Origin: Alphaproteobacteria bacterium
GTDB taxonomy: Bacteria > Pseudomonadota > Alphaproteobacteria > UBA6615
Assembly (NCBI GenBank): GCA_018666195.1
Contig: JABJAG010000123.1
Location: forward strand, 1-34,222
Direction of reading: 5' to 3'
Length of the DNA stretch: 34,222 nucleotides
This document shows, piece by piece, positions 26,432-34,222 of this stretch. The position numbers were made by a program, and so were the translations under genes. Position 1 is the first letter of the stretch; each line of letters starts with the position of its first letter. The notes beneath the pieces are model-generated. The model did not search any database and was not told the DNA's origin. It saw only the letters and a list, made by a program, of their open reading frames with translations.

Positions 26432-26507
26432 GCCCGGGTAGCTCAGTTGGTAGAGCACGCGACTGAAAATCGCGGTGTCGGTGGTTCGAATCCGCCCCCG
26501 GGCACCA
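26432..26507 (+). tRNA. tRNA-Phe (GAA anticodon)
   Basis: Complete cloverleaf of 76 nt: acceptor GCCCGGG/CCCGGGC, D-arm starting GCTC, anticodon stem CGCGA/TCGCG with loop CTGAAAA (anticodon GAA), T-arm GGTGG/CCGCC with loop TTCGAAT, discriminator A and an encoded CCA. It reads UUC/UUU. The 3' end faces the right accessory block. Confidence 0.98.
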
Positions 26508-26574
26508 TTTTCCCCGATAGATTATACTCTTCTCTCCGCGATCAATTTCGGTCGCGTATCTATGAGGCTGTCTG

Positions 26575-27645
26575 ATGACTGGTTCCGACGCACGCAAAGC
26601 TTTCGACAACGAAGTCTTCGAGTACTGGATTCCGCGGCTGGTGGCCGATGGGATGGATATCAATGATGTGCAGGCCGTGCGTCCGCAGGTCACGAGCTGG
26701 GATGACTGGCCGGGCGCATGGGAAACCGTGGGCGAGACCTATCTGGAGCTGGCGCAACAGCGACGTGGCGATGGCGCGGCTGTGACGGCGGGCGAAGCGT
26801 TCGTCCGGGCCAGTCTGTGTTTTCATGTGGGGCAGGTGGTGGCCAATCACATGCCGGATGTGAAGCGTGATTTGCAGCGCCGCAAGGAAGCCGCGTTCCG
26901 GGAGGCGGCACCGAATCTGGTGCCGCCGGCCGAGCGGGTTGAGGTCAGCCACAACGGCGTGACCCTGCCGGGTTATTTGCGATTGCCGCTGAGCGGTGAA
27001 GCACCCCATGCCTGCATGGTCCTTGTGCCGGGCCTCGATTCCACCAAGGAAGACTTCGTGACTCTGTCAGAGATGTGTGCGCGGCGCGGTCTCGCCAGCT
27101 TTGCCTTCGACGGCCCGGGGCAGGGTGAGGTGCATCCCCACGCACCACTGGAAGAAGGCTATGAGGATTCTGTCCTGACCGTCTTTGCGGCGATTGCGGC
27201 GCGGCCGGAGATCGATGCGGCTCGGATTGGCATGCTGGGGCGTAGTCTTGGCGGCTACTACATCCCGCGCGCCGCAGCTCTGGAGCCGCGCATCAAGGCG
27301 CTCGCGGTGTTCGGTGGTGCCTATGATCTGGGTGACTGGGACAGCATGCCGAAAACAATTCTCGATGGATTTCTCTGGGCGACCGGCAGCGCGACGATGG
27401 ATGAGGCGCGCACTCGGATGGGACCGGCCTCACTCGATGATTGCATCGACACTGTGCGTTGCCCGACCCTGATCGTCCACGGCAAGCGGGATGGCATCTT
27501 TCACTACACGCAGGCAGAGCGGATGGCCGAGGCCATTGGCGACAAGGCCGAACTCGTTATCGAAGAGAACGGTGTTCATTGCTGTCACAATTACGGATTC
27601 AAATACCGCACCATGATGATTGACTGGATGGCGCGAACGCTCTGA
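26575..27645 (+). CDS. Alpha/beta hydrolase, DHPON hydrolase-like
   Basis: A 356-residue serine hydrolase with a helical N-terminal region of about 120 residues before the core, as in 2,6-dihydroxypseudooxynicotine hydrolase and related esterases. The core shows VLVPGLDSTKEDF (oxyanion side), FAFDGPGQGE, the nucleophile S224 in GRSLGGYYIPRAA, the acid region LIVHGKRDGIF and the probable base in NGVHCCHNYG. It shares the distinctive S-L-G-G-Y-Y-x-P-R-A-A block with the enzyme at 11349-12524, so both belong to one subfamily, though they differ at their N-termini. It is first in a three-gene run with a cupin and an oxygenase, 67 bp after tRNA-Phe. Substrate unknown. Confidence 0.87.
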   Translation: MTGSDARKAFDNEVFEYWIPRLVADGMDINDVQAVRPQVTSWDDWPGAWETVGETYLELAQQRRGDGAAVTAGEAFVRASLCFHVGQVVANHMPDVKRDLQRRKEAAFREAAPNLVPPAERVEVSHNGVTLPGYLRLPLSGEAPHACMVLVPGLDSTKEDFVTLSEMCARRGLASFAFDGPGQGEVHPHAPLEEGYEDSVLTVFAAIAARPEIDAARIGMLGRSLGGYYIPRAAALEPRIKALAVFGGAYDLGDWDSMPKTILDGFLWATGSATMDEARTRMGPASLDDCIDTVRCPTLIVHGKRDGIFHYTQAERMAEAIGDKAELVIEENGVHCCHNYGFKYRTMMIDWMARTL

Positions 27646-27676
27646 CAATCAGGCGTCCAGCACGGAGGGGAAAGCC

Positions 27677-28006
27677 ATGTCGACAAAGTTAATGGAGAAG
27701 ACCGCTGACGTTGCCGCGGAACGAGACATCGCCACCCACCGGGTGTTGATGGAAGATGAGTCCATGATTGTGACCCATTGGGTCTTCAAGCCCGGTGAAC
27801 AGACCGGCTGGCATTTGCACGACCGCGACTACATGCCGATCCAGCTGTCGGATGGAAGATTGCGGTTTGAGTTTCCCGACGGTGAGACGAAGGAACTGGA
27901 CTATGTGCCGGGAACATCGTCACACGTGAAAGCGCCGGTTGAACACAACGCGATCAATATTGGCGATGTCGACATCGTTGCCATTGAGATCGAATTTAAA
28001 ACCTGA
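27677..28006 (+). CDS. Small cupin-domain protein
   Basis: A 109-residue single cupin. The first cupin motif is FKPGEQTGWHLHDRDYMPIQLSDG, with metal-ligand histidines in WHLHDRDY; the second is VKAPVEHNAINIGDVD with one further histidine. It therefore probably binds a divalent metal, but whether it is an enzyme or a ligand-binding protein cannot be told. The ATG at 27677 has a GGAGGGG ribosome-binding site; the open frame upstream to 27620 overlaps the hydrolase gene and is rejected. It lies 31 bp after the hydrolase and 37 bp before the oxygenase fusion. Confidence 0.85.
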   Translation: MSTKLMEKTADVAAERDIATHRVLMEDESMIVTHWVFKPGEQTGWHLHDRDYMPIQLSDGRLRFEFPDGETKELDYVPGTSSHVKAPVEHNAINIGDVDIVAIEIEFKT

Positions 28007-28043
28007 CCAAACAGGATCGCCCGTTCAGAGGATTGACCACCGC

Positions 28044-29111
28044 GTGACTTACAATATTGAAGATCCGATTGGCCCCGGAGATCGAGCACCCGACTTTGTG
28101 CTGTTCGATGGGGAAGGCAACCCCGTCAATTTGTACACCAGTGTGCGGGGCGGAATGCCGCTGGTCCTGTTCTATCCCGACCTGGCAACCTTGCAGGCCG
28201 AAACGGCGGGGCTTGCGGCCGTCACCGAGGAGTTGTCCGCGCTTCATGCGCATGTTTTCATCATCGTGGATGCCACGCCCGAGCAGCCTTTGCCGGAACT
28301 GGCAGCGCCGTTTTTTGTGGTCCGCGACCCGGGCCTGACGACGCTGACCGCCTGTGGCCTGCGCGCGGACGGTGCGGTTCTTGCGCTGCGATACGATCCG
28401 AATTTGCGCCTGACGGGGCTGCGCCGCAGCGGAGTCGAGGCGATCTGGCATTTTGTGGAGCAAGCCCGTGCACGACCGGCGCAGGATGCACCACGTCTGA
28501 TTCAGGAGCAGGCGCCGGTGTTGATCGTCCCGCATGTGCTCTCGCCATCCTTTTGCGCAGAGCTGATCCAGCTGCATGAGGAACAGGGGAATGTGCCCTC
28601 GACGGTGAATTACAACAAGGATGGGGTGGATGTGCAGGAGGTCTTTCCCGAGCACAAGATCCGCCATGACCACGACGTGGTGGATGCCGCGATCAATCGT
28701 CGCCTCGACGATGCGTTCGCGCGCCGGGTCAATCTGGAAGTCTGGAAGGCATTCAATTTTGAGGTGGCCGCCCGCGAACCCTTCAATGTCGCTCGGTATG
28801 CCGGCGACGAGAAAGGGCACTTCGCCGTCCATCGGGACAACACCACACCCACTTCAGCGCATATGCGGTTCGCTGTGACTGTGAACCTGAACCCCGATGA
28901 CTACGATGGCGGTGCCCTGCGGTTCCCGGAATATGGAAATGATCTCTATGCACCACCGCTGGGCGGCGCAATCGTGTTCTCCTGTTCGCATCTGCATGAG
29001 GCGACACCGGTGACCCATGGCACGCGCTATGCGTTGCTGGTGTTTCTGTTTGGCGCTCAGGGTGTGCAGCAACGCGCCGAGACCCTGAAGGCGCTCGGAA
29101 GTCAGCGCTAG
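28044..29111 (+). CDS. Peroxiredoxin-like/prolyl-4-hydroxylase-like 2OG oxygenase fusion
   Basis: A 355-residue protein with two domains. Residues about 1-145 look like an AhpC/TSA-type thioredoxin fold (GPGDRAPDFVLFDGEGNPVNL, LVLFYPD), but no peroxidatic cysteine is present where FYP-x-x-x-T-P-x-C would be expected, so it should be redox-inactive. Residues about 155-340 are a 2OG-Fe(II) prolyl-4-hydroxylase-like domain: ligands H263 and D265 in HFAVHRDN, distal H318 in CSHLHEATPVTHG and the 2OG-binding R328. The start is set at GTG 28044, since upstream residues do not fit the domain; SD-like AGAGGA lies about 11 nt upstream, so this start is only moderately sure. The reaction is presumably hydroxylation of a peptide or small molecule. 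Confidence 0.8.
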   Translation: MTYNIEDPIGPGDRAPDFVLFDGEGNPVNLYTSVRGGMPLVLFYPDLATLQAETAGLAAVTEELSALHAHVFIIVDATPEQPLPELAAPFFVVRDPGLTTLTACGLRADGAVLALRYDPNLRLTGLRRSGVEAIWHFVEQARARPAQDAPRLIQEQAPVLIVPHVLSPSFCAELIQLHEEQGNVPSTVNYNKDGVDVQEVFPEHKIRHDHDVVDAAINRRLDDAFARRVNLEVWKAFNFEVAAREPFNVARYAGDEKGHFAVHRDNTTPTSAHMRFAVTVNLNPDDYDGGALRFPEYGNDLYAPPLGGAIVFSCSHLHEATPVTHGTRYALLVFLFGAQGVQQRAETLKALGSQR

Positions 29112-29122
29112 GGGTTTTCTGA

Positions 29123-29162
29123 TTTTACACACTCAAGTGTGAAACCTGTAAAGGCGTTTACA
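29123..29162. repeat. Tandem inverted repeats after the oxygenase fusion gene
   Basis: Two adjacent palindromes: TTTTACAC (29123-29130) against GTGTGAAA (29137-29144), 7 of 8 paired, and TGTAAA-GGCG-TTTACA (29147-29162), perfect 6-bp arms. They start an AT-rich stretch in the 530-bp intergenic gap. The second resembles a LacI-type operator in outline. No T-tract, so not a clear terminator. Confidence 0.45.
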
Positions 29163-29286
29163 TCTAAACAATTGAAATAAAACGTAATAATTTCGATTCG
29201 GCTCATTTCGCCGTTAGGGTTTTTCTTGTCGCCGGATTATTCATCAGGCGGCGGCAAAACCTCAGCAGGCGAAAGGTGCCCAACCA

Positions 29287-29538
29287 ATGAACCAGATTTC
29301 CAAAGCAGCACGGCCCGATCTTCGCACCACGGAATACACATGGAGCGCCCCGGCCACCCCGTGATTGGAGTATGACAAGGATGGGAAGCCGGGCACTGTT
29401 GTTGTTGAGCTTGCCTGCACGGTGATGCCAACCCGCCGATTGAGTCCTGAAGCGCCGACACAGCGTGCATCCTGTTCGATTCCGCGCTCTTCCTTTGCGG
29501 AATACGACGATGGCGACCCGGGAACAATCCTCGTCTAG
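29287..29538 (+). pseudogene. Small ORF interrupted by one in-frame TGA
   Basis: From the ATG at 29287 (with GAAAGGTG upstream) the frame encodes 25 residues beginning MNQISKAARPDLRTTEYTWS, then a TGA at 29362-29364, then continues open for 57 more codons to a TAG at 29536. The downstream part contains EYDKDGKPGTVVV and, at its C-terminal end, EYDDGDPGTILV, an internal repeat that suggests real coding origin. I see no family. The simplest reading is a recently broken gene of about 83 codons; a short 25-residue peptide or chance are alternatives. No obvious selenocysteine hairpin follows the TGA. The rest of the 29112-29642 gap holds the tandem palindromes and a terminator. Confidence 0.4.
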
Positions 29539-29578
29539 ATATCCCCCGGTCATCTCTTAACCGACCGTCTTCCAATGA

Positions 29579-29612
29579 AAAAGCCCTTCTCCGTATCGGA
29601 GAGGGGCTTTGT
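29579..29612 (-). terminator. Rho-independent terminator of the TauD-family gene
   Basis: On the minus strand AAGCCCCTCTCCG pairs with CGGAGAAGGGCTT around a 3-nt loop (+ strand arms 29581-29593 and 29597-29609), followed by TTT (the stem plus tail give a run of five T). It lies 31 bp beyond the stop of the minus-strand oxygenase gene and is the best intrinsic terminator in the window. Confidence 0.8.
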
Positions 29613-29642
29613 CTTTTCGGTTTGGTCTGCGGCTCAGGCGGC

Positions 29643-30677
29643 TCAGGCGGCTTCGCGGGTTTTTGGAATGCCACCGGTCTCCACATAGCGATAGCGCTCC
29701 GCGAGAACAGGAGAGAGCAGACGGCGGCGGTGATCGGTCATGCCGATCCACATGCGCAGCAGACGGCGCTTGCGGTCCGGCTCGTCAAAATCCTCGTAGG
29801 CCTGACGGGCATGCAGGATCGAGTGGTTGTTGATGAACTGCATATCGCCTTCCTGAAAATCCATTTTCAGGCGCAGTTCTTCTCGGTTCGAGATTTCCTG
29901 GAACACATCCAAGGCTTCGGTTTGCGCGTCGCTCAGCGCCAATTCGTCGCCGTAGCGTGACACCGATTCCATGAACGAGCGGTTGGTGACGCGGGCCGCG
30001 ATCCGTCCGTCGCGCGCGGTCAGCATGGGCACGTCATACCAGGGCTGTTCGCCATCCGGATGGTCGCCGCGCCAGTCCACATGGAACGGTGCGTAGAGCA
30101 CGTCGAGAAGGTCGGGGCGCTCGTCGCGCAGCACATTGTGAACAGCTGGTGCACTGACCAGATAGCTGGTGCCACCGGACTTCGCTGTACGCAGGCAGAA
30201 CAGGCCGAGCAGGTCGACGGGCAACTGGTCACAATGGAAGTCCAGGCGATTTTTGGTTTGGTACCCGCGGGCGTTCGGGTCTGCCAGGGTCTTGCCTTCG
30301 TCGGTCACGTTACCAAGCAAATGACCGCGCGAGTTTTGTGAGACCGGGCGTCCCATATGGGCGCCAAGACCCCAGTAAATGAGGCCGCATTCTTCGTTGG
30401 TATAGCGTTCACGTGGAATGCCGCGAATCAGGATCACACCCAATCCGTCGGTGACCCGTGAAATCAGTTCGTCCAGCCGCGCCTTGAACGCCGGAATGGG
30501 GAATGCCTCTGCTGCGAACGGAATTTCGAGATTGGCGGATTTGGCCACCTGTAGCGCCGAATCGATCTCGGCAATTTCGTGGGCACTCAGTGTATAGAGC
30601 CAGCGATCATCGTCTTGAATATCAGGCCCGACCCATGCATCTGGCGCGGTGATTTTCTCTCGAATGATTTCGGTCAT
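29643..30677 (-). CDS. TauD/TfdA-family 2OG dioxygenase
   Basis: A 344-residue 2-oxoglutarate-dependent dioxygenase of the TauD/TfdA superfamily. The H-x-D pair is H148 and D150 in LDFHCDQLPVDLLGL, the distal histidine is in NNHSILHAR (most likely H289), and RKRRLLRMW supplies the 2OG-binding arginine. VILIRGIPRERY near residue 81 and SRGHLLGNVTDEG are typical of the branch. These enzymes hydroxylate an unactivated carbon in compounds such as amino acids, betaines or aromatic ethers. The ATG has GAGGGAA upstream. It is divergent from a TAXI-type importer, so its substrate might be the transported compound (inference). Confidence 0.9.
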   Translation of the reverse strand: MTEIIREKITAPDAWVGPDIQDDDRWLYTLSAHEIAEIDSALQVAKSANLEIPFAAEAFPIPAFKARLDELISRVTDGLGVILIRGIPRERYTNEECGLIYWGLGAHMGRPVSQNSRGHLLGNVTDEGKTLADPNARGYQTKNRLDFHCDQLPVDLLGLFCLRTAKSGGTSYLVSAPAVHNVLRDERPDLLDVLYAPFHVDWRGDHPDGEQPWYDVPMLTARDGRIAARVTNRSFMESVSRYGDELALSDAQTEALDVFQEISNREELRLKMDFQEGDMQFINNHSILHARQAYEDFDEPDRKRRLLRMWIGMTDHRRRLLSPVLAERYRYVETGGIPKTREAA

Positions 30678-30786
30678 GGATTTCCCTCACAACGATCTTG
30701 TCTCTGCGCTGACACTATCGGGATTGGTGGTTCACCTGCAACGGCCACAGATGCAGAATGCAAATGAAAAATTTTGCAATTTTGAG

Positions 30787-30802
30787 ATTTGTCAGGACAA
30801 AT
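30787..30802. promoter_or_regulatory. Palindrome between the divergent TauD and TAXI genes
   Basis: ATTTGTC-AG-GACAAAT is a perfect inverted repeat with 7-bp arms, centred in the 264-bp region between the divergent oxygenase and binding-protein genes, 109 bp from one start and 139 bp from the other. Its place suits a shared operator. A second small hairpin (GGACCC/GGGTCC, 30903-30919) lies in the TAXI leader. Confidence 0.5.
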
Positions 30803-30941
30803 TCACTTGATCTTGGCGGATGTCGCTGCCATCGTTTTGCACAGAACGAATGTCGGATCTGCGCCAACGGTATAGGTGCGGCAACCGGATCGATTTTTTT
30901 GTGGACCCAACAAGGGTCCTGTCCAACGGGAGGAACCCCAA

Positions 30942-31931
30942 ATGAGTTTTAAAAGCACCCTTGTGGCTGCAGTCAGCGTTGTCGTTCTTGCGACCTCCGC
31001 ACAGGCAGCCGAACAGTATCGTATTGGTGGCGGCCCCGCAGGCGGCGGCTGGCATCCTTCGGTCAGCGCTGGCGCACAGCTGCTGAACTCCGAACTCGGT
31101 GACAACTACAAGTTCAACTACTCGCCTTCAAACGGCTCGGTCGATAACGTCCGCCGCGTTGCTTATGGCAAGTTTGACACCGCATGGGGTCATGTCGGTC
31201 AGGTCTTCCAGGCCTGGAACGGCGTTGGCCTGTTCAAGGAAGATGGCGCGCTCAAGGATTTCCGCATCATCGCCAACGTGCGTAAGCAGACCCAGATCGT
31301 TGCGGTTCTTGCTGACAGCCCGATCAAGACCTACTCGGACATGAAGGGCAAGGTCGTCAATCTGCTGAACAAAGGTTCAGGCAGTAACGTGAACTGCAAG
31401 AACATCATGATTGGCGCCGGCATTATCGATCAGATCGATACGCGCAATCTTGGTTTCAGTGATTCCGCGCGTGCGCTCGGTGATCGTCAGATCGATGTGT
31501 TCTGCTCTGCAGGTGCACCGTTCCTGATCCCGGCTCTGACCCAGCTTTCGATTTCCAAGCCCGTTCGTTACATCAGCTTGTCTGATGCAGAGCAGGCTGA
31601 AGTGATCAAGAGCAGCCCGTTCTACTCCGCTGTCACCATTCCGGTGCAGGCCGACGTGAAAGGCATGACCGAACCGGCAAAGTCGATTGCGTATGACGTG
31701 TATTGGCTCGCCTACAAGACCATGTCGGACGAGGCGATTACCGCCATGCTGGAAACCACAGCTGATCCGGAAAATCTGAAGAAGCTTGCTGCTGTTGCTG
31801 GCTACTGGAAAACCTTGAATGGTGATTTCACCAATCTCAAGGCACTCGGTATTCCGCTGCATCCGTCAGCTCAGAAGTATTGGAGCAGCCGCGGCTTCGA
31901 CACTGCCGGTGTTCCGGTCGCTGCGTTCTAG
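30942..31931 (+). CDS. TAXI-family TRAP periplasmic binding protein
   Basis: A 329-residue TAXI-type (TRAP-associated extracytoplasmic immunogenic) solute receptor. It begins with a signal peptide (MSFKSTLVAAVSVVVLATSA, cleavage probably after AQA) and continues EQYRIGGGPAGGGWHPSVSAGAQLLN, the family's typical start. Other blocks are KVVNLLNKGSGSNVNCKNIM, IDVFCSAGAPFLIPALTQL and VTIPVQADVKGM. The ATG at 30942 has a GGGAGGAA ribosome-binding site; the frame open back to 30876 is leader. It works with the fused permease encoded next. TAXI receptors are known for some dicarboxylates and amino acids, and the ligand here is unknown. Confidence 0.92.
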   Translation: MSFKSTLVAAVSVVVLATSAQAAEQYRIGGGPAGGGWHPSVSAGAQLLNSELGDNYKFNYSPSNGSVDNVRRVAYGKFDTAWGHVGQVFQAWNGVGLFKEDGALKDFRIIANVRKQTQIVAVLADSPIKTYSDMKGKVVNLLNKGSGSNVNCKNIMIGAGIIDQIDTRNLGFSDSARALGDRQIDVFCSAGAPFLIPALTQLSISKPVRYISLSDAEQAEVIKSSPFYSAVTIPVQADVKGMTEPAKSIAYDVYWLAYKTMSDEAITAMLETTADPENLKKLAAVAGYWKTLNGDFTNLKALGIPLHPSAQKYWSSRGFDTAGVPVAAF

Positions 31932-31966
31932 TCCGGATTATCCGAACTAAAATTCTGTAAAGTGCG

Positions 31967-32002
31967 CGGGGCGCGAAGTGGGAAACCTCATTTCGCGCCC
32001 CG
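31967..32002 (+). promoter_or_regulatory. Hairpin between TAXI binding-protein and permease genes
   Basis: CGGGGCGCGAA (31967-31977) pairs perfectly with TTCGCGCCCCG (31992-32002), with further pairing possible inside the loop. No T-tract follows, so it should not fully terminate. It fits a 3' stabiliser or attenuator that keeps the binding protein more abundant than the permease, as at 8111-8138. Confidence 0.65.
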
Positions 32003-32070
32003 GTTCACTTGCGTATTAGATTAAGTATCGAGTTACGACGGGCAGACTGCTCTCGGGGGAGACATCGGCT

Positions 32071-34222
32071 ATGGCCATCACCACACTTTCAGTATTGACG
32101 AAGATCGGGATTATCGCCGACGAGATGACGCCACCGCGTGGTCTGGCTGGTGTCGTGCGCCCGTTCTTCTCCGTGATCGCGGTTGTTTACGCCTATTTCT
32201 TTATTCACATCTCGTTTTTCGGACCGCCGGTTGAAGAAGTCTTCCGAGGTACATTTATCCTCGGCACTGGCGTTATGTCGCTGCTCGCCTTCAAGAACCG
32301 GCATTATTCCATCCGTGAGCGCGTTGTCTGGCTCGACGAACTGTTCAGCATCACCAATCTGGCTATGGTCGGCGCGGCGATTGCCATCTGGATCCACTGG
32401 CAGATTTCCGATTCACCGAGACGATGGGACCAGTATTACAACGGTACCGTTCTCCTGGTCGGCTATATCGGTGGCGCACTGGGTGTTGCCCTCTATTTGT
32501 TCGAAGGCCTTCGTAAGAAGGTCGGCGATGGTTTTTCGATTTCCGACATTCTCTTCATCGGCTGCATCATCATTTCGGTCATCTGGTACATCGAGAATGT
32601 GCAAGCTTTGCGGGAGGCAACCGGTCGGCCGATTCCGGCGCTTCTGTTCATCTATGCCGTGATGATGGTGGCTGTCAGCCTTGAGATTGCGCGCCGCATT
32701 GTTGGTCCGCTGATCCCGCTGATCGGCTTTTTGTTCTTCATCTATTCCTTCGAGACTGTCGGCCAGGCCATGCCGGGCATTCTGAATCACCCCGGCTATC
32801 AGGCAGAGGAGGTCATGGACTTTCTCATTTCCTCGACCGAGGGCATGTTCGGCCTGATCACCAACGTCTTTGCAACCTTCATCGTCATCTTCGTCATTCT
32901 GGGGGCGTTCCTCGAGAAGACGGGCCTTGGCGCTGTTATCATCAATACGGCTTACCGTATGACAGGTGCCAAAACCGGTGGTCCGGGCCTTGCGGCCGTG
33001 ATCAGTTCCGGTCTGTTTGGCATGATTTCGGGCAGTGGTGTTGCCAATGTTATGACCACCGGGACGCTGACAATTCCGCTGATGAAGCGTGTTGGGTATC
33101 GCCCCGCTTTTGCTGGCGGCGTTGAAGCTGCTGCATCAACTGGTGGTGCCTACATGCCGCCGATCATGGGTGCAGGTGCGTTCCTGCTCGCAGAACTGAC
33201 CGAAACCCCGTATTTCGACATCGTCAAAATCGCGGTCATTCCGGCCATTCTTTACTATCTCTCGGTTGGGCTGATCGTATATTTCCGTGCCGTGAAAGAC
33301 CGTTTGCACGGCGTGCCAATTGAAGAGTTGCCACGTTGGGCCGATATCATTCCACGGCTGCATTTGTTGTTGCCGATCCCGGCGATGGTGTTCTTCCTGC
33401 TGATCGGCGATTCGCCTTTCCTGGCGGCAGCAAAAACGATCCTGCTGATCATGATGCTCAAACTGATCGATTTGCTGGTGTCGATTCCGACGGCCAAGTC
33501 GAAGACCTCATGGAAACCGTTTCTGGTGATCTCGATTGTCGTTGGCGTCCTTGTTTATTTCTTCGGCATGAAGATTGGCGCTCCGTTCTCATGGTTTGTT
33601 GAGGACTATGTGGGCATCGGCTTCGGTGATGCGGCCTATTGGGTTGTATTCTCGTTCATCGTTCTGAAGATCGCCGAAATTATGATCTACGGTCGGGATG
33701 AAGAGGCGGCCGCGGCTGCCGCGCTGGTGGAATCCAACCAGAACATGATTGCTGTCGATGAGAACGCAAAACCCATGACCGGGCTGCGCGATGTTCTGAT
33801 CGAGATGGGGCGTACCATCTGGGTCTCGCTTGAGGCCGGTGCGCGCAACACATTGGTGGTGAGTTGTATCGCCGGTGTGCTGGGCATCCTGCTGTCTGCG
33901 GCGACCAAGACCGATCTGCCAAGTACCATCGGTGGTGTTCTTATCTCGGCCAGTGGCGGCATCCTGCCGATCACGATCGTTCTGATCATCATCGCCGGTT
34001 ATATCATCGGCATGGGTCTGCCCATTGTGGCCAGCTATGTGCTGCTCGCGATCTTCTCGGTCGGCGCGCTGGTTGATCTGGGTGTGCCCGCTCTGGCAGC
34101 ACATATGATCAGCTATTGGGTGGCGGTTGTGAGTGCAGTGACACCGCCTGTTGCGTTGGCAGCCTTCGCGGCCAGTTCGATCGCGCAATCGGATCCTGTT
34201 GCGACCGGTAACCAGGCATTCA
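32071..34222 (+). CDS. TRAP transporter fused permease (DctQM-type), 3' partial
   Basis: An inner-membrane TRAP permease with small and large subunits fused, the usual partner of TAXI receptors. The window shows 717 residues and ends before the stop. The first about 220 residues contain several helices of the DctQ-like part. The DctM-like part has FATFIVIFVILGAFLEKTGLGAVII, GPGLAAVISSGLFGMISGSGVANVMTTG, STGGAYMPPIMGAGAFLLAE and, near the edge, SAVTPPVALAAFAASSIA. A cytoplasmic, charged stretch (GRDEEAAAAAALVESNQN) lies between helices at about 547-565. The ATG at 32071 has GGGGGAG upstream, 139 bp after the binding-protein gene, with a hairpin in between. Confidence 0.93.
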   Translation, partial: MAITTLSVLTKIGIIADEMTPPRGLAGVVRPFFSVIAVVYAYFFIHISFFGPPVEEVFRGTFILGTGVMSLLAFKNRHYSIRERVVWLDELFSITNLAMVGAAIAIWIHWQISDSPRRWDQYYNGTVLLVGYIGGALGVALYLFEGLRKKVGDGFSISDILFIGCIIISVIWYIENVQALREATGRPIPALLFIYAVMMVAVSLEIARRIVGPLIPLIGFLFFIYSFETVGQAMPGILNHPGYQAEEVMDFLISSTEGMFGLITNVFATFIVIFVILGAFLEKTGLGAVIINTAYRMTGAKTGGPGLAAVISSGLFGMISGSGVANVMTTGTLTIPLMKRVGYRPAFAGGVEAAASTGGAYMPPIMGAGAFLLAELTETPYFDIVKIAVIPAILYYLSVGLIVYFRAVKDRLHGVPIEELPRWADIIPRLHLLLPIPAMVFFLLIGDSPFLAAAKTILLIMMLKLIDLLVSIPTAKSKTSWKPFLVISIVVGVLVYFFGMKIGAPFSWFVEDYVGIGFGDAAYWVVFSFIVLKIAEIMIYGRDEEAAAAAALVESNQNMIAVDENAKPMTGLRDVLIEMGRTIWVSLEAGARNTLVVSCIAGVLGILLSAATKTDLPSTIGGVLISASGGILPITIVLIIIAGYIIGMGLPIVASYVLLAIFSVGALVDLGVPALAAHMISYWVAVVSAVTPPVALAAFAASSIAQSDPVATGNQAF

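Follow-up and report, generated by a model that had tools for sequence, protein, structure and literature searches.

A peroxiredoxin-like domain without peroxidatic cysteine fused to a prolyl-4-hydroxylase-like oxygenase in Alphaproteobacteria

The gene and its locus

The window, i.e., the whole stretch of DNA that was analysed, comprises 34,222 nucleotides, and the features discussed here are collected in Table 1. The gene under study encodes a two-domain protein, in which a peroxiredoxin (Prx)-like domain is followed by an oxygenase domain of the prolyl 4-hydroxylase (P4H) type. Its GTG start is also found in a copy of 89% identity from an uncultured alphaproteobacterial MAG (L032). As the first-pass annotation had described, the gene directly follows a gene for a hydrolase like the 2,6-dihydroxypseudooxynicotine (DHPON) hydrolase and a cupin gene: the three stand in tandem, with 31 nt between hydrolase and cupin and 37 nt between cupin and oxygenase. 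The next gene, coding for a TauD-family oxygenase, is convergent with ours and a terminator-like stem lies between the two, therefore they are not co-transcribed.

Table 1. Features of the two-domain gene, its neighbours and related loci (window coordinates unless a locus is named)
Feature	Position	Strand	Remarks
Alpha/beta hydrolase like DHPON hydrolase	26575..27645	+	PDB 2jbw, E 2.6e-55; at the locus in relatives without the oxygenase
Cupin_2 protein	27677..28006	+	Within the genus, present or absent along with the oxygenase gene; adjacency not conserved
Two-domain gene, pseudo-peroxiredoxin and P4H-like Fe(II)/2OG oxygenase	28044..29111	+	355 aa, GTG start
Peroxiredoxin-like domain (AhpC/TSA, BCP-type), residues 10-150	28071..28493	+	G12, P16, G36, D95 are conserved fold residues
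Position of Prx active-site motif PxxxTxxC, residues 45-54	28176..28205	+	P45, T49, A52, no Cys; stretch poorly conserved in family
P4H-like 2OG-Fe(II) oxygenase domain, residues ~156-345	28509..29078	+	
C171, invariant oxygenase-domain Cys	28554..28556	+	92/92 in family
HxD iron-ligand motif H263-R264-D265	28830..28838	+	92/92 in family
C314, four residues N-terminal of H318	28983..28985	+	Cys in 83/92
Distal iron ligand H318	28995..28997	+	91/92 in family
2OG-binding R328	29025..29027	+	92/92 in family
Terminator-like stem, 14 bp	29580..29610	.	Separates the oxygenase gene from the convergent TauD gene; a shorter match overlaps it on the opposite strand
TauD-family oxygenase (gamma-butyrobetaine-dioxygenase-like), convergent	29643..30677	-	Conserved at the locus in G744, G376, G746, G760
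TAXI-family TRAP transporter solute-binding protein	30942..31931	+	Conserved at the locus
TRAP permease	32071..34222	+	Runs off the window
Loci of the folC-trxA paralogue clade	L034-L037, L040, L256-L269		
Rare Cys-bearing members	L034 7629-8708 (+); L268; L091 1450-2586 (+)		Motif Thr not kept

The syntenic order at this locus is Maf, RNase E/G, a cargo, TauD and the TAXI-TRAP importer. Window positions 26432-34222 hold a tRNA-Phe gene, followed by the cargo that varies between RNase E/G and TauD in relatives: it consists of the hydrolase gene, of the hydrolase, cupin and oxygenase genes, or of an amidase-like gene with the oxygenase gene, and TauD (with TAXI-TRAP where the contig reaches that far) is constant. 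Two genomes of the same genus (G376 and G746) have the hydrolase, TauD and the downstream TAXI-TRAP genes there and neither cupin nor oxygenase. In G760, which belongs to another genus, an oxygenase orthologue of 62% identity is convergent with the same TauD gene, there is no hydrolase or cupin, and the contig ends before the importer. The orthologues of G208 and G756 are located elsewhere and adjoin neither hydrolase, cupin nor TauD, and the complete trio was found only in the window genome and one relative of 88-89% identity (L032/G744). Since TauD and TAXI-TRAP are kept across relatives while the cargo varies, they are the stable element of the locus.

Family-wide, the immediate neighbours are diverse: at about 37 loci from many families, 107 neighbours fell into 131 Pfam families, none of which was counted more than 4 times. 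As for a link to defence, PADLOC gave just a generic '2OG' CRISPR-associated model and no defence signs were seen nearby.

A peroxiredoxin fold joined to a 2OG-Fe(II) oxygenase

The assignment of the C-terminal half is clear. The Pfam model 2OG-FeII_Oxy_3 (PF13640) matches residues 248-335 with E 1.3e-12 and 48.9 bits, compared to a curated cut-off of 27, and the Fe(II) and 2OG ligands H263, D265, H318 and R328 are all kept at the positions named in the first-pass annotation. All 92 distinct two-domain members of the family have H263, R264, D265, N283, E296, G326 and R328, and all but one have H318. By its sequence, the protein thus belongs to the 2OG-Fe(II) oxygenase superfamily. Its nearest solved relatives in this half are LH3/PLOD and the PiuC-type PKHD hydroxylases. 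The best single-sequence match in PDB is LH3/PLOD (8zgc, 6fxk; E 3e-6), which is, however, eukaryotic and has glycosyltransferase domains where the window protein has the Prx domain. PiuC/YbiX and other 2OG-FeII_Oxy_3 proteins (9ghl, 3dkq) share the HxD...H...R core, the G-rich strand and the fold of the C-terminal half. Contrastingly, the window protein has the N-terminal Prx domain and a Cys at position 314, and its 34.4 bits are far below the cut-offs, 143 and higher, of the NCBIfam equivalog models for PKHD-type (PiuC/YbiX) proteins. No Cys is seen at the place of C314 in the LH3 or PiuC alignments; the alternation of residues along a beta-strand suggests that C314 is perhaps on the same side as H318, four residues on. 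Close relatives of the oxygenase half that consist of this single domain, with no Prx part, are found on viral contigs (L151 3001-3582, L152 3001-3540), therefore the Prx part is an added module.

For the N-terminal half the first-pass annotation had proposed an AhpC/TSA thioredoxin fold, which is borne out by the family profile and by modelling. A single-sequence search with the Pfam AhpC-TSA model covered residues 11-81 and stayed below the cut-off (E 1.9e-4), and a profile of 27 family members, compared with solved structures, recovered peroxiredoxins of the BCP/PrxQ type along residues ~10-156 (3drn, E 3e-15). The model of residues 1-151, built from a small alignment, has a pLDDT of 86.3, a pTM of 0.83 and the topology of a thioredoxin fold, and a Foldseek search of PDB with this model returned peroxiredoxins and ResA-like proteins (E ~5e-9, TM-score 0.65-0.72). 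The alignment took in four true peroxiredoxins, which may pull the fold towards them; hence the evidence from the model is only partly independent, and that from the profile match is independent. The domain was modelled alone after one full-length alignment with phage 2OG proteins and peroxiredoxins had misplaced the latter; the full-length model, from a three-sequence alignment, had a pLDDT of 39.

Compared to the BCP/PrxQ peroxiredoxins (PDB 3drn, 2ywn, 3hjp), the domain agrees in fold, in length and in the order in which the secondary structure elements follow each other, and the glycine, proline and aspartate residues of the fold are preserved (G12 in 91, D95 in 90, G36 in 89 and P16 in 86 of the 92 members). 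What differs is that the family lacks the peroxidatic Cys and the active-site Arg and is always fused to the oxygenase. When aligned to canonical BCP proteins, the peroxidatic motif P-x3-T-x2-C reads P45-x3-T49-x2-A52: the proline and the threonine remain, and alanine stands at the site for which the annotation had already noted the lack of a cysteine. This absence is a property of the family, as 90 of the 92 members have Ala, Gly, Ser, Leu or other residues in this column and Cys is present in two. The reading that the window copy is a lone mutant is thereby ruled out. The active-site Arg is lost in the window copy and, as far as the imprecise alignment can be followed, 11 of the 92 members have Arg at the aligned position. 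The sole cysteine of the domain, C104, is not a family feature: L032 has it and L003 does not. Most positions of the stretch 45-54 rank 82-118 of 141 columns in conservation and so belong to the less conserved ones of the Prx domain. Judged from these alignments, the N-terminal domain is a peroxiredoxin by fold only, not by function.

The exceptions with Cys at the peroxidatic position are a paralogue of genus g3 with the motif PTQKDPGC, found in G208 and, judged from its sequence, in G756, and one member from G356, with NPAC. In genus g3 the Cys codons differ between the two species (TGC and TGT), the motif Thr is replaced by Asp and the Arg is lost. In such isolated members the cysteine may have been either retained or regained.

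Distribution and divergence of the family

The first-pass annotation had suggested that other genomes be searched for the same architecture, and it was found in 84 of the 385 sampled genomes of the class (about one in five) and across many families; a single genome had at most five matches. In a phylum-wide sample every full-length match belonged to this class, and what matched outside it were ordinary BCP peroxiredoxins of a single domain. Single-sequence searches of genome contigs and of viral contigs gave L032 alone or no match. A contig catalogued as viral (L073) also carries a full-length member. The family is large, alphaproteobacterial and apparently undescribed. The full-text literature searched, which misses most subscription papers, so that an earlier mention is possible, held no description of the fusion or of Cys-less Prx-oxygenase proteins. 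Both folds are already known and, as far as this literature goes, the fusion is the new part.

In a tree made by a quick method, the window copy, L032 and G208 form a fully supported clade separate from the other subfamilies. Between the window copy and L032, dN/dS is 0.19 for residues 1-150 vs. 0.03 for residues 151-340, and the mean pairwise identity in the whole family is 24% for the Prx domain vs. 47% for the oxygenase domain. The Prx domain is thus constrained and yet diverges faster. Such a pattern is consistent with a surface for specificity or for a partner, and equally with a scaffold under loose constraint.

Of the 24 genomes in the window's family, most carry a paralogue of the two-domain protein between folC and trxA-addA, and these paralogues form a clade. 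Both folC and trxA flank the paralogue in 12 genomes, and in further ones either of the two is obscured by a contig end or by divergence. One genus in this clade has Cys at the peroxidatic position. In G028, from another family, the paralogue adjoins trxA-addA. A check of the linkage outside the window's family covered about 35 loci, and the trxA link is limited to a single bacterial family and one genome besides. We regard the folC-trxA linkage as a lead only, since vertical inheritance within one family could explain it without any functional reason. The window genome's own second copy (contig 259; L002/L037) reads TAG in frame ahead of the codons for the distal His and Arg, i.e., it is a broken gene or an assembly error.

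Possible role of the pseudo-peroxiredoxin domain

We propose, with moderate confidence, that the protein is an active 2OG hydroxylase, in which the retained pseudo-peroxiredoxin binds a substrate or a partner or serves oligomerisation. The oxygenase half would bind Fe(II) via H263, D265 and H318 and 2OG via R328, activate O2 and hydroxylate a substrate, an activity predicted from the conservation of these residues. In the Prx half the fold is kept and the catalytic motif is gone, so it should no longer be able to reduce peroxide; most likely it serves as a non-catalytic surface, which recognises a substrate or partner or holds a dimer. A role other than peroxide removal, as suggested in the first-pass annotation, is likely because the Cys loss is family-wide and the oxygenase is intact. 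A possible model for the Prx half is found in collagen prolyl 4-hydroxylase, the catalytic domain of which is held by the thioredoxin-fold domains of PDI, where the b' domain binds via a hydrophobic pocket in a tight contact (PMC9676403). We treat this enzyme as a works-like analogue, since it also combines a P4H-type catalytic domain with thioredoxin-fold domains (PMC9676403), and do not claim homology for the Prx part: in the collagen enzyme these are separate subunits with intersubunit disulfides, and PDI is not of the peroxiredoxin type. At the window locus the enzyme probably works beside the TauD-type oxygenase and the TAXI-TRAP importer in the metabolism of organic compounds. Because gene contexts differ across the family, the substrate would have to vary or be generic.

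The nearly invariant Fe and 2OG residues, the scarcity of the peroxidatic Cys, the preserved fold residues and the widespread architecture would support the proposed binding role. Against it, the faster evolution of the Prx domain would also be expected of a leftover scaffold under weak constraint, and two lineages have Cys at the peroxidatic position. One would argue from these lineages that a once-active peroxiredoxin had been fused to the oxygenase in order to remove H2O2 or to keep the iron reduced, and that it is now kept for folding or stability of the oxygenase. The nearest relatives of the N-terminal domain are indeed canonical BCP peroxiredoxins, genus g3 keeps the Cys with different codons (though with Asp for Thr and without the Arg), and one paralogue clade adjoins trxA, which encodes the reductant that peroxiredoxins usually employ. 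However, all 92 members keep the full fold and dN/dS is far below 1, and in the isolated Cys-bearing members retention is indistinguishable from regain, the change from Ala to Cys taking two base changes. We therefore consider such a vestigial function rather unlikely.

The trxA neighbourhood would also suit a redox or oxygen sensor, in which the Prx fold would serve to detect a partner such as thioredoxin, and a thiol switch of C171 and C314 near the iron would tune hydroxylation. In favour of a switch are the conservation of both cysteines and the position of C314 just before an iron ligand, where LH3 and PiuC have none; however, both may be buried and structural, and the trxA link is limited to the one family and the single additional genome. 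We regard a sensor as quite improbable. Least of all do we expect that hydrolase, cupin and oxygenase constitute one undescribed oxidative pathway, as the annotation had supposed of these possible partners. The genes are tandem and close-set in the window and in L032 and are followed by the terminator-like stem, but G376 and G746 keep the hydrolase at the syntenic locus without the other two, the orthologues of G760, G756 and G208 do not adjoin a hydrolase or cupin, and neither the rarity of the trio nor the diverse neighbours of the family fit such a partnership.

A broader form of the proposed binding role, which we consider unlikely, is a class of alphaproteobacterial protein hydroxylases with the pseudo-peroxiredoxin as the substrate- or partner-recognition domain, through which the paralogues diversified and by which the folC-trxA clade is tied to thioredoxin. 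If true, these hydroxylases would add to alphaproteobacteria a level of protein modification that depends on oxygen and has so far gone unrecognised. Retention of a redox fold over deep divergence, with the catalytic residue gone, would make the domain a clear example of a pseudo-enzyme put to a new use; deletion or swapping of the domain could offer a testable handle on the targets of bacterial P4H-like oxygenases. An AhpC/TSA annotation on such proteins does not imply peroxide defence. The database records covered here name the members just "2OG-Fe(II) oxygenase", and a few plasmid copies of the family are annotated in this way too. A named member with both domains and no peroxidatic Cys is WP_012760540.1 of Rhizobium leguminosarum WSM1325. 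On plasmid pR132503 of R. leguminosarum (L148 5671-6813) a two-domain, Cys-less copy is convergent with a DoxX / DUF692 / DUF2282 cluster, which starts 400 nt downstream.
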